NCBI GenBank assembly: GCA_016867315.1
Contig: VGJV01000007.1
Coordinates: 1 to 43,026 of the forward strand
Source of the DNA: Candidatus Liptonbacteria bacterium
GTDB lineage: Bacteria; Patescibacteriota; Minisyncoccia; UBA6257; 2-01-FULL-56-20
Reading direction: 5' to 3'
Length of the DNA stretch: 43,026 nucleotides
The notes under the pieces were generated by a model. That model was not told the origin of the DNA and did not search any database. It was given only the letters and a program-made list of their open reading frames with translations. Both the position numbers and the translations under genes were made by a program. Shown piece after piece: positions 1,498-40,312 of the stretch; the first letter of the stretch is position 1, and each line of letters opens with the position of its first letter.

Positions 1498-1568
1498 ACT
1501 GTCCTATCTTTCTTGGGTTGAAGAGAGGTTCTGTATTGAATGGAGAAAAACAACTGAAAAGTAGAGGT

Positions 1569-1886
1569 ATGAACCAAAAAAATACTCTCACCAGCAACAA
1601 TTCACCCCTCGGCACACTTCCCTGCATTATCTGCCATAAAAAGCTTGAGCATGCAGTCCCGGAAGTAGGCGAAGGGAATCAACCGGACTGTGGTGTCGCA
1701 TGCACTACGCCCGGCCACTACGGGTCTCGGGTCTTTGATCCCGACGACGGCCACTTCCTCGAATTCAATGTTTGTGACGACTGTCTGCGCAAGGCAGCGG
1801 CCGAACATTTGATCGCGCTCGGATTCAAAGGAAGAGATTCCTTAAGACTCTGGGCACCGGGAATCGAGGATTTCTCGGATAACTGA
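1569..1886 (+). CDS. Hypothetical protein with CxxC pairs (possible zinc-binding)
   Basis: ORF 1518..1886; internal ATG at 1569 preceded by AGAGG. Contains CIICHKK and CDDC motifs. Confidence 0.5.
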   Translation: MNQKNTLTSNNSPLGTLPCIICHKKLEHAVPEVGEGNQPDCGVACTTPGHYGSRVFDPDDGHFLEFNVCDDCLRKAAAEHLIALGFKGRDSLRLWAPGIEDFSDN

Positions 1887-25395: not shown

Positions 25396-32226
<6,831 letters not shown>

Positions 32227-32540
32227 TTTTGTATTATCTTTCGTTCGCGTTGCGTGTAGATTGCTCCGCATACGCAAGGCGCAACGAGTAGGTTAGTACT
32301 TTGTACAGCTGCGAGGAGCAACGCCGCGGCCGGAGCAATCAGCCGCAACCGCAGGATATGGCTCTTTTATATTATCTCTGCGGCACTCCTCCTTGCGGTA
32401 TCGACATACCGCTGCGTCGTCGTTTCTTGATTTAAAAATAAAAGAGCTCATATCGCGGACGGAAATAATACGAAAATGAGTTCTGCTAAACATATAAAAT
32501 TAATTAATATTTAAATTAAAACGATATGTAACGCGCATAA

Positions 32541-36587: not shown

Positions 36588-37328
36588 CATGTTTCCACGC
36601 ATTACTGCGTGCATTGGACTATACCTTTATCTTTTCCGCAGTTACGGATGAAGATAATCGACGTGTAGTCTCTACGGGGTCATACGTTTCGCACTGTTAA
36701 ACGAAGCAAGAACACTTAATGCCGTTATTCTTCTTTTCTTCGAATAATTTAATTCTTTGTACCGATCAATGAGTGCTGCTAGTTTCAAAAATTCTTCCTT
36801 AGAAGAAACTTTTTCTTTTTGATCGAGAATTTGAATCAGGAGAGAAGCTTGTTCTCTCTTGAATATCAGATAGGGATGAATCTGAGAAATAAGATCGCGC
36901 ATTGTTTGAGTATCACCGATAGTAAATTCGGCAATACCGTCATTGCGTTTTCTTATGTATCCTGCTCCAATTTCTTCTTTTATCCGCTCGAGAAATCTAA
37001 TTTCTTTTTGCGATTGATAAAAAACAATGTTTGGAGCAATTTGAAATCCATATCGATATTGTGTATTCGGTTTCAGACGTACATAAATACTGCCGTCTCC
37101 ATCGAGGAAACCGGCAACATATGCCGCCATCATTTCGTTTAACCTGCGCATTGTAGACTTCCCTCGGTATTATCCTAGCATATGACAGGTTATCATTCCA
37201 TGCTTGGACTCCACCGATATGAGTCGATTGTGCTTCTTTATATTTCTATAAAGAGCCGCCGTGATTTGATGTCCTTCTCGGATTCAGACCGTACAATCCA
37301 CGATGCATACTTCATGATCATGAACTCT
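36588..37328 (-). mobile_element. Group I intron in 23S rRNA (E. coli 2593-equivalent site)
   Basis: Exons rejoin as ..GGGUUCAGACCGU|CGUGAGACAGGUCGGUC. Sense 3' end has R (UAGAGACUACACG), P8 (UUAUCUU/AAGAUAA), S (AAGGUAUAGUCC), P9 (CACGCA-GUAA-UGCGUG) and terminal G. Confidence 0.92.
36672..37151 (-). CDS. LAGLIDADG homing endonuclease, I-CreI-like, intron-encoded
   Basis: YVAGFLDGDGSIYVRLKPNTQYRYGFQIA..., EEIGAGYIRKRNDG, QIHPYLIFKREQASLLIQIL, DRYKELNYSKKRRITALSVLASF; parallels I-CreI throughout, single LAGLIDADG motif. Confidence 0.93.
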   Translation of the reverse strand: MRRLNEMMAAYVAGFLDGDGSIYVRLKPNTQYRYGFQIAPNIVFYQSQKEIRFLERIKEEIGAGYIRKRNDGIAEFTIGDTQTMRDLISQIHPYLIFKREQASLLIQILDQKEKVSSKEEFLKLAALIDRYKELNYSKKRRITALSVLASFNSAKRMTP

Positions 37329-39438
37329 ACGGTCTGAACCCAGCTCACGTGCCCTTTTAATTGGCGAACAGCCAAACGCTTGGGAGCTTCTCCACCCCCG
37401 CGCTAGGGCGAGCCGACATCGAGGTGCCGAGCGTTGTCGTCGATAGGAACTCTCGGACAACACCAGCCTGTTATCCCCGGAGTAGCTTTTATCCGTTGTC
37501 TCCGGCCTTTCTATGAAGTGCCGTCGGGTCACTAACTTCCGCTTTCGCGTCTGCGCGACTTGTAGGTCTTGCAGTTAAGCCGGCTTGTGCGTTTACACGT
37601 CCTGCCCGATTTCCATCCGGGCTAAGCCGACCTTAATAAACTCCTCCGTTACTCTTTGGGAGGAAAACGCCCCATTTAAACTGCCTACCAAGCACTGTTC
37701 CATGACGTTTTTGCCGTCGAGGTTAGACATTAAAGATTCAAAGATGGGTGTTTCATTGGCGCCTCCACCCTGTCCGAAAACAGAGCTTCAAAGGCTCCCC
37801 ACTACGCTACGCATTAAACCCCTAATGCCAATACCAGGCTGCAGTAAAGCTTCCGGGGTCTTTTCGTCTTGCTGCAGGTATCCCGCGTCTTCACGGGAAT
37901 CGCATTTTCGCCGAGCATGCCGCTGAGACAGTTCTCCAGTCGTTACACCTTTCGTGCGCTTCGGAACTTACCCGAAAAGGAATTGCGCTACCTTAGAACG
38001 ATTATAGTTATCGCTGACATTGACGAGGGCTTCGCTCGCTCAGCCGTACATCCTTGCGGACATACGACCGGCAAGATTAACCTTCTCGCATCGGTCAGGT
38101 GTCACCCCCTATACATCCTCTTGCGAGTTCGCAGGGAGCTGTGTTTTTGGTAAACAGTCGCCAGAGAGACTTTCATTGCAGACCACCTTGCGGTGGTCAG
38201 GCCTTATCGCGAACTTACGGCCGCTTTTTTGCCTAGTTCCTTAGCGGCAGGTCACTCGTTCCCCTTAGGCTTCTCGCCTCACCCACCTGTGTCGGTTTAC
38301 GGTACGGAAACCATGTGTAATACATAGGGCTTTTCTAGGAAGGCCATTCGATTCTGTTCACGAGGTAAATTCCTCGCGTTCCCGCTACGCATGCGCGCCA
38401 CGGATGCCAAACCAATAAGACACAGAATCTTATCTCCTTCGTCCCCCTACTTAACACACACGGCTGGGACGGAATATTAACCGTCTGTCCATCGGCTGCG
38501 GTTTTCACCATTGCCTTAGGGCCGCCTAACCCGTGGTTGATTGCCAGTGCCACGGAAACCTTGGATTTTTGGGGTTCCAATTTCGCATTGGGATTGTGGC
38601 TACTCATTCCAACATTTTCTCTTCTCTGCACTCCAGTCGCCCTCGCGGGTCGACCTTCAGTGCGCAGAGAATGCTCTCCTACCGCTCGCCGGCTAATGCC
38701 GACGAACCCACAGCTTCGGTAACGTGCTTGAGCCCCGGTACATTTTCGGCGCCCCCTGCCATCGAATAGTGAGTTGTTACACACTCTTTAAAGGATGGCT
38801 ACCTCTAAGCCAACCTCCTATCTGTCTCTGGCAGAAGACTACCTTTAACACTGAGCACGTATTTAGGGACCTTAGCTAGTGATCTGGGCTGTTCCCCTTG
38901 CGAACATGGAGCTTAGCCCCCACATTCTAACTAGTATACTTGCGCTCCTGGTATTCGGAGTTTGATTGATCTGTCGGCCTTTCGGCCTTTACAGATCATC
39001 CAGTGCTCTACCCCCAGGGCTACGTATACCGCTATACGAAAATATATTTCGGAGAGAACCAGCTATTACCGAAATCGATTAGCTTTTCACTCCTTACCTC
39101 GGCTCATCCGAAGGTTTTGCACAACCAACCAGTTCGGGCCTCCCCCTCGCTTTCGCGAGGGTTCACCCTGGCCAAGGCAAGCTCTTCCGGCTTCGGGTCT
39201 ATTATGTGCTGCCCGCAATCAGTGAACTCTGCGCGCGAGGCGCAAAGTTCATTGATGCTACGCCCTATTAAGACTCGGTTTCCCTATGCCTCCGTCGCTT
39301 ATAGCGACTTAGACAAGCAACACACAATAAGTCGTTGGATCATTCTTCAATAGGCACACTGTCAGGCTTGCGCCCTTCAGTTCCTTGTAAGCAAATGGTT
39401 TCAGGTTCTATTTCAACGGCCTCACCGGCCTGCTTTTA

Positions 39439-39469
<31 letters not shown>

Positions 39470-39548
39470 ATCATCAAAAGTATTTAGCCTTACGAGATAG
39501 TACTCGCAACTTCCTTCGGGGCTACTTGACCTCGAAGTACTCAAGATG

Positions 39549-39818
39549 GTCTTGTATCTCACCAATATCGCGAAATTTGAAAGCGGGAAAATGAGACGAG
39601 TTCGAGGCGCGAGGACGAAGACGTACTCGGAGAGTACGTCGAGGAGGATTAACGAAGAAATCGGCCATTTTCCCGCTTTCCCTTCAGGGCAAGCGAATTT
39701 TGACCAGCTTCTTTGTTGCTCATCGCTCGAGTACCGTCAAGGTACACATCGCTCTTCGCGCCGCGAATCTGCTCAAAATTCGCGTCGCCAAATTCGTGAA
39801 ATTGGTGAGATACAAGAC
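39549..39818 (-). other. IVS-like insertion in 23S domain I
   Basis: 18-bp perfect inverted repeat gtcttgtatctcaccaat (39549-39566)/attggtgagatacaagac (39801-39818) enclosing further hairpins, in a loop where I recall no comparable segment in E. coli 23S. Confidence 0.8.
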
Positions 39819-40312
39819 ATGAAACTAAGAAGTTCATCAGTTTTCGCCTACGGGGCTATCACCGTCTTTGGCTCCGCTTTCCAGCGAGATTCGACTAACC
39901 AATGAATTTGTAACTTCTCCTTATCTCGCAAATCGCACTGCACTTTGGGTGCCTTGCGATTTGCAAAACAGCGTTTCACTCTTATGACCCTTCTTATTCT
40001 TGCGAATAAAAAGTTTAGGCTCTTCCCTTTTCGCTCGCCGCTACTAAGGGAATATACGGTTGTTCTTTATTCCTCCGCTTACTGAGATGTTTCACTTCAG
40101 CGGGTGCACGTCCATGATTGCTCACGGACAGTTGAGGGTTACTCAACTAGGTTTCCCCATTCGGAAATTCCCGGATCGTCGGTTGCTACGCACCTCCCCG
40201 AGACGTATCGCCGCTATGCTGCGTCCTTCGTCGCCTTTTGATGTCTAGGCATCCACCATTCGCCCTTATAGCTCATTCTGCGCTGGACTTCCCAAGCTTT
40301 CGCCTGGGCCGA

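Follow-up and report, generated by a model that had tools for sequence, protein, structure and literature searches.

The 23S rRNA gene of this Candidatus Liptonbacteria genome is interrupted, which raises the question of what the interrupting element is and of how its RNA handles an exon to which part of it is complementary. The window, i.e. the whole stretch of 43,026 nucleotides analysed here, carries the gene on its minus strand (37247-40278 in the whole-window search, with the 3' part recovered by a local search), and a 741-nt insert (37328..36588, minus strand) interrupts it. Judging from sequence comparisons, we consider it very probable that a mobile L2593-type group I intron has inserted here, equipped with an enzyme of the I-CreI family and with an anti-5'-exon element whose pairing partner is the final 13 nucleotides of the upstream exon.

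The insertion site

The flanks of the insert rejoin as GGGUUCAGACCGU|CGUGAGACAGGUCGGUC, a junction that corresponds to E. coli 2593/2594 in the numbering of this conserved sequence. The intron (741 nt, 36588..37328, minus strand) thus directly follows the counterpart of E. coli U2593, where introns of the L2593 family are inserted. In the family, 14 of 38 genomes carry the uninterrupted site GAGCUGGGUUCAGACCGUCGUGAGACAGG. It is exact in 13 of them, among which are the two other members of the genus, and has a single mismatch in one; these empty sites fix the intron boundaries to the base at both ends. The original prediction had placed a group I intron at the 2593 site, with the conserved 23S sequence split at 36588-37328 and the exons joined as GACCGU|CGUGAGACAG. 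Its coordinates turned out to be exact, the junctions and the empty sites bear out the position, and the proposed joining agrees with the intronless genomes of the genus and of the family.

The ribozyme core

The Rfam family Intron_gpI matches positions 36595-36815 with 30.6 bits, which is below the 50-bit gathering score of the family, and with E values of 1e-5 in a local search and 2.1e-6 in a genome search. The low score probably reflects the 480-nt ORF that interrupts the core, which a generic model does not accommodate well. The Rfam search that had been suggested as a check thus supports a group I intron by its E values, and the core helices and the covariation of P3 and P4 do so as well, although the score itself falls short of the gathering value.

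We read the core by comparison with relatives, which gave P1, P10, P2, P3, P4, P6 flanking the ORF, P7, P8, P9 and the terminal G, all on the minus strand. The internal guide sequence GCGG (37256..37259), identified from the relatives, lies within the hexamer GGCGGC (37255-37260) and forms P1 with the exon sequence CCGU, leaving a U.G wobble at the 5' splice site. Of 79 relatives, 76 have this hexamer unchanged, and every relative that lacks a hairpin at the splice site is among them; the guide gives a U.G pair at that site in 38 of 38 cases. The strand UCACG (37260..37264) forms P10 with the 3' exon CGUGA; it covaries with the 3' exon (CGUGA, CGUAA or CGCAA) among the relatives, where it is paired at 92% with compensatory changes. 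P1 and P10 are therefore both formed from a single guide sequence (UCACG-GCGG), as is characteristic of group I introns.

The P2 hairpin CUUUAUAGAAAUAUAAAG (37236..37253) was read from the sequence. P3 is formed by AAUCGAC (37223..37229) and GUCGAUU (36656..36662), and P4 by UCGGU (37213..37217) and ACCGA (37164..37168). Both are supported by covariation: P3 is paired at 96.9% in 59 relatives, an automatic set outside which the window falls, its own P3 having been read by eye, as against 89.5% at best once the strands are exchanged between sequences; for P4 the values are 99.3% and at most 94.6%. P7 pairs GACUA (36666..36670) with UAGUC (36617..36621), the latter belonging to a segment, UAUAGUCC, that is kept in the relatives. 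P8 is the hairpin AUCUU..UCCG/CGGA..AAGAU (36629..36655) and P9 the hairpin CACGCA-GUAA-UGCGUG with its GUAA tetraloop (36596..36611), both seen in the sequence and in the Rfam alignment. The terminal G (omega G, 36588) is fixed by the empty site. P8, P9 and the terminal G before the 3' exon are hence all readable in the sequence, as had been claimed, and together with P3, P4, P6 and P7 they make up a conserved group I core with its P3/P7 pseudoknot and 3'-terminal G. P7 leads directly to P3 in the window intron (36672-36655); many relatives have an extra hairpin between these strands.

Other group I elements appear in the same genome. An ORF-less group I intron of 195 nt sits directly 3' of the anticodon of a tRNA-Phe(GAA) gene (L001, contig C1, about 1515-1709, plus strand), the joined exons of which score as tRNA-Phe with ARAGORN. 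A 209-nt insert with a group I match of 42 bits occupies a tRNA-Asp(GUC) gene (L002, contig C4, minus strand), and its joined exons score as tRNA-Asp. Both split genes are missed by standard tRNA scans. Elsewhere in the window, RpoB and RpoC are fused in one frame of 2293 aa (25396-32277, minus strand), and the RpoB/RpoC junction lies within one long open frame in nearly all family genomes that have it.

The endonuclease and its relatives

The ORF in loop L6 (36672..37151, minus strand) codes for a 159-aa protein with a single motif, which matches Pfam LAGLIDADG_1 at 6.6e-13. A PDB sequence search ranks I-CreI, I-MsoI and I-CvuI as the closest proteins of solved structure, and the match to I-CreI extends over residues 4-154 at about 1e-26. 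An AlphaFold2 model built from an alignment of 34 family members reaches a pLDDT of 91, and the top Foldseek matches of this model are I-CreI structures (TM-score about 0.9, 1.8 A). The family assignment thus stands on motif, sequence, alignments and predicted fold, and the description of the ORF as I-CreI-like, paralleling I-CreI over nearly its whole length, is well founded. In I-CreI, D20, Q47 and K98 are catalytic, and R51 is a further basic residue of note. The counterparts of the first three (D19, Q46 and K98) are invariant among the 34 family sequences; the position of R51 is occupied by E in the window protein, and the next position by K.

Relatives of the window protein were found at 1e-5 in 75 of 380 genomes drawn from the phylum. 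Most of the close relatives are situated at 2593, and they fall into two host sets, one with ACCGU exons and the guide GGCGGC, to which the window belongs, the other with AACGU exons and the guide GCGUUCU. A scan of 84,980 species (GTDB) confirmed the expected CPR host, since the nearest 80 loci are all labelled CPR/Patescibacteria or unnamed bacterial MAGs. The nearest relatives, in a Paceibacterota MAG (L034) and a Daviesbacteria MAG (L035), belong to a group of CPR proteins that are 57-63% identical to the window protein, as against 32% for I-CreI. No relative was detected at 1e-5 in plasmids and phages, and the IMG/VR matches are proteins of only 24-33% identity.

Does the window enzyme share a homing lineage with I-CreI, as the original prediction had it, pointing to transfer between chloroplasts and CPR bacteria? 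The same site, the same fold, 32% identity and the conserved catalytic residues speak in favour of this idea, and the enzymes do belong to one family. We built a tree of 98 proteins in which I-CreI and I-MsoI alone represent the plastid enzymes; I-CeuI, the intended root, had an extreme branch (9.9) attached to an odd row (L103), and both were dropped. A branch with support 100/96 sets apart 76 ACCGU-host CPR proteins, among them that of the window. Across it, I-CreI and I-MsoI sit on long branches, together with the AACGU set and those CPR proteins that are encoded elsewhere than at 2593. A common clade would unite the window protein with I-CreI and I-MsoI and leave the other CPR 2593 enzymes outside, which is not the grouping seen in the tree. 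A tree that holds these three together is 27 log-likelihood units worse (p-AU 0.08), so that such an exclusive grouping is disfavoured by the sequences, if not formally rejected. Furthermore, group I introns of subgroup IA3 are known at LSU 2593 in archaea (Nawrocki et al. 2018, PMC6125680), and the site must consequently be old and widely invaded. A chloroplast-CPR transfer is thus unlikely. With the window protein embedded in a CPR-only group, the data lend no support to a recent transfer, and its direction cannot be read from them; they are compatible with an old shared ancestry of the 2593 enzymes.

An element complementary to the 5' exon

In the window, 67 nt separate the 5' splice site from the guide sequence, and these include a putative anti-5'-exon element. 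The 5' exon ends in the 13 nt GGGUUCAGACCGU (37329..37341, minus strand), a strand of the peptidyl transferase centre whose final CCGU forms P1. The element ACGGUCUGAAUCC (37280..37292, minus strand) is the complement of all 13 nt, with one G.U pair. The rest of the predicted masking hairpin consists of the first 36 nt of the intron (37293..37328, minus strand), themselves folding into a stem. The predicted energies are -22.9 kcal/mol for the exon/anti-exon helix and -5.1 for P1, and the whole hairpin is predicted at -38.3 kcal/mol. The GU of the exon CCGU is common to P1 and to the anti-exon helix, which are thus mutually exclusive at those two bases.

Comparison of the relatives distinguishes introns according to the length of the P1 loop, with no extension (5-7 nt), a short loop (17-48 nt) or a long loop (57-109 nt). 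A complement to the exon is present in 27 of 27 relatives with a long loop, with a median run of 10 bp, whereas other exon stretches give runs of 5-6 only against the same loops. These 27 loci were collected by their protein, not by the element, and the register was set by best complementarity. In 26 of them the complement to exon positions -13 to -5 is ungapped with every cell paired; exon position -6 is G-C in 16 and A-U in 10, and position -8 is C-G in 23 and U-A in 3. As for the short loops (25-50 nt), a shuffle test on single loops, which is a weak test, reached p 0.05 in 8 of 27, and we therefore do not count this class as shown.

We also scanned 384 genomes of the window's class with a pattern in which both the host and the intron letters were left free. 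This returned 46 places in 44 genomes, and a reversed control pattern returned none in the same genomes. The class scans yielded 43 distinct places, in which exon position -6 is G-C in 21, A-U in 20, G-U in 2 and A-C in none (Fisher 2.6e-10), and position -8 is C-G in 40 and U-A in all three with U, with no other combination. Positions free of the pattern are mostly paired as well (-1, U-A in 37; -2, G-C in 40; -4, C-G in 38). G.U pairs are tolerated at position -11, as expected for RNA. A composite alignment with 38 distinct rows shows a nine-pair helix in which each of the 342 cells is paired; six of the nine pairs never vary, because the exon is so conserved, and the regular expression that gathered the rows fixed those columns, so that only the variable columns test the pairing. 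The host and intron changes at position -6 coincide on the ORF tree, with four changes each. Tree-independent contrasts, three at -6 and two at -8, are all concordant, which is too few for significance alone. The predicted exon/anti-exon pairing thus rests on covariation with the host rRNA.

The distribution of the element is patchy. It is scattered on the ORF tree, with 24 changes of loop class, which implies that it is often gained, lost or exchanged. Its absence from the closest ORF kin of the window, L034 and L035, indicates that it is dispensable. It also occurs in ORF-less introns of 245-320 nt, which argues that it belongs to the ribozyme. No such element was found in AACGU hosts among 380 genomes. 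Three same-site introns of Andersenbacteria (L041, L044 and L045) end in CAG before CGCAAG exons, and a short self-complementary P1 loop replaces the anti-exon element in them. A Staskawiczbacteria MAG (L089) has an intron at 2593 that measures 1272 nt and exceeds that of its near relative L088 by over 500 nt.

The exon hairpin could conceivably be an unusually long P1, with no separate masking helix, as it is the sole strong pairing at the 5' splice site of the window and the minimum-energy fold. As a candidate for P1, the 14-bp exon hairpin was rejected on the comparison of the 79 relatives, in which the guide GGCGGC provides the U.G pair. The hairpin puts U-A at the splice site instead of the canonical U.G; the conservation of the guide extends to relatives without a hairpin, and next to the guide lies the P10 strand, which changes together with the 3' exon. 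In addition, the exon C at position -3 faces a non-pairing letter in 37 of the 43 hairpins, the window being one of the six with G there. Altogether, we regard a long P1 as very unlikely.

Even less probable is a role of the complement at the DNA level, for instance as an inverted endonuclease half-site serving binding or autoregulation, with no RNA helix. Its 13 nt do correspond to the left half of the presumed target in inverted orientation. However, a DNA site would account neither for the tolerated G.U pairs and the retained mismatch at -3, nor for a spacing that varies from 25 to 51 nt, nor for the presence of the element in ORF-less introns, nor for the compensatory changes that it shows with the host exon. 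We give equally little credence to the hairpin being an RNase III site from which the insert is excised without ligation, like the classical intervening sequences of bacterial 23S rRNA. The long and nearly perfect duplex of the window would suit that enzyme, but the insert has a complete group I core, P10 covaries with the exons and the hairpin is missing from many same-site relatives. Moreover, the intron position is inside the peptidyl transferase loop, where a break would presumably not be tolerated.

Discussion

The reading that we favour, a mobile group I intron with an element directed against its own 5' exon, allows a course of events to be proposed. By analogy with the families concerned, the intron RNA would remove itself in two transesterifications that join GACCGU to CGUGAGACAG, and a dimer of the encoded protein would cut intronless 23S genes at the 2593 site, with repair copying the intron in. 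The anti-exon helix would form as soon as the upstream exon and its complement have been transcribed. The exon strand, destined to become part of the peptidyl transferase centre and helix 93, would then stay in this helix while transcription runs on for hundreds of nucleotides to complete the ribozyme and the 3' exon. Handover of the exon to the guide sequence would have to precede splicing, because P1 and the helix compete for the GU of CCGU, which only one of them can pair at a time. After ligation, the exon strand would pass to helix 93.

We infer that the anti-exon strand forms a masking helix in competition with P1. Our best guess as to its use is that of a placeholder for the exon strand while the intron is being transcribed, and the mismatch that most relatives keep at -3 has the look of a compromise that allows the guide to displace it. 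It is tempting to speculate further that, in many CPR L2593 introns, the helix is a built-in chaperone or checkpoint that masks the 5' splice site as well as the peptidyl-transferase strand, splicing occurring only after strand exchange to the guide and intron removal being tied thereby to the correct assembly of the active centre. We put this forward tentatively, as somewhat more doubtful than not. A masking role, a tether for the 5' exon between the two steps and a brake on splicing would all fit the sequences, and the data do not separate them. Since the predicted masking helix is far stronger than P1, it might also hamper splicing of the window intron. In the Tetrahymena intron, over-stable P1ex pairing is thought to be selected against (PMC7877785). 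P1ex and P10 of that intron (PMC7877785) resemble the present case in that mutually exclusive helices are exchanged at the 5' splice site during splicing; however, P1ex pairs intron with intron, whereas the element described here pairs with 9-13 exon nucleotides, including those at the splice site.

Several known systems share the other features of the locus. The main text of Tsurumaki et al. (2024, PMC11270868) reports LAGLIDADG_1 proteins in inserts at 23S positions 1917, 1931, 1952, 2593, 2604 and 2657 across CPR bacteria, all single-domain enzymes, one of which, I-ShaI from another site, is an active homodimer. Their 2593 inserts match that of the window in host group, site, protein family and group I-like structure, and an intron with a LAGLIDADG_1 enzyme at 2593 in CPR is thus, going by that text, already known in kind; it describes neither an exon-complementary element nor covariation between host and intron (PMC11270868). 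The archaeal IA3 introns, likened here by their description, have the same site and are expected to have the same ribozyme subgroup, in archaeal hosts (PMC6125680). The chloroplast L2593 intron of Chlamydomonas reinhardtii with I-CreI, as well as the introns of I-MsoI and I-CvuI, resembles the window in its site and in its single-motif enzyme of about 160 aa, with a fold TM of about 0.9 and equivalents of D20, Q47 and K98. It differs in its host sequence, AACGU instead of ACCGU, with a guide sequence changed to match, and its enzyme differs by its 32% identity, its R51 in place of E and its separate position in the tree. Nothing relevant to an earlier description of such exon-intron helices was found in the open-licence literature, an absence that is weak evidence.

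As for the enzyme, the hope of a source of a new I-CreI-type nuclease is fulfilled in a modest sense. The window protein is one more natural member of the I-CreI family, with a host site a few positions off that of I-CreI, which is useful but ordinary given that the kind is already documented in CPR (PMC11270868). The part that deserves attention is the exon-covarying masking helix, a repeated and testable case of co-evolution between a selfish intron and its host exon. The locus also carries a caution for the reading of other introns, namely that P1 should not be assumed to be whichever hairpin is strongest at a 5' splice site. The element occurs in about one in nine sampled genomes of one CPR class. 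In these bacteria, the co-evolution of intron and exon would reach further than the handful of bases that P1 and P10 require, and it would do so in the rRNA of the peptidyl transferase centre.
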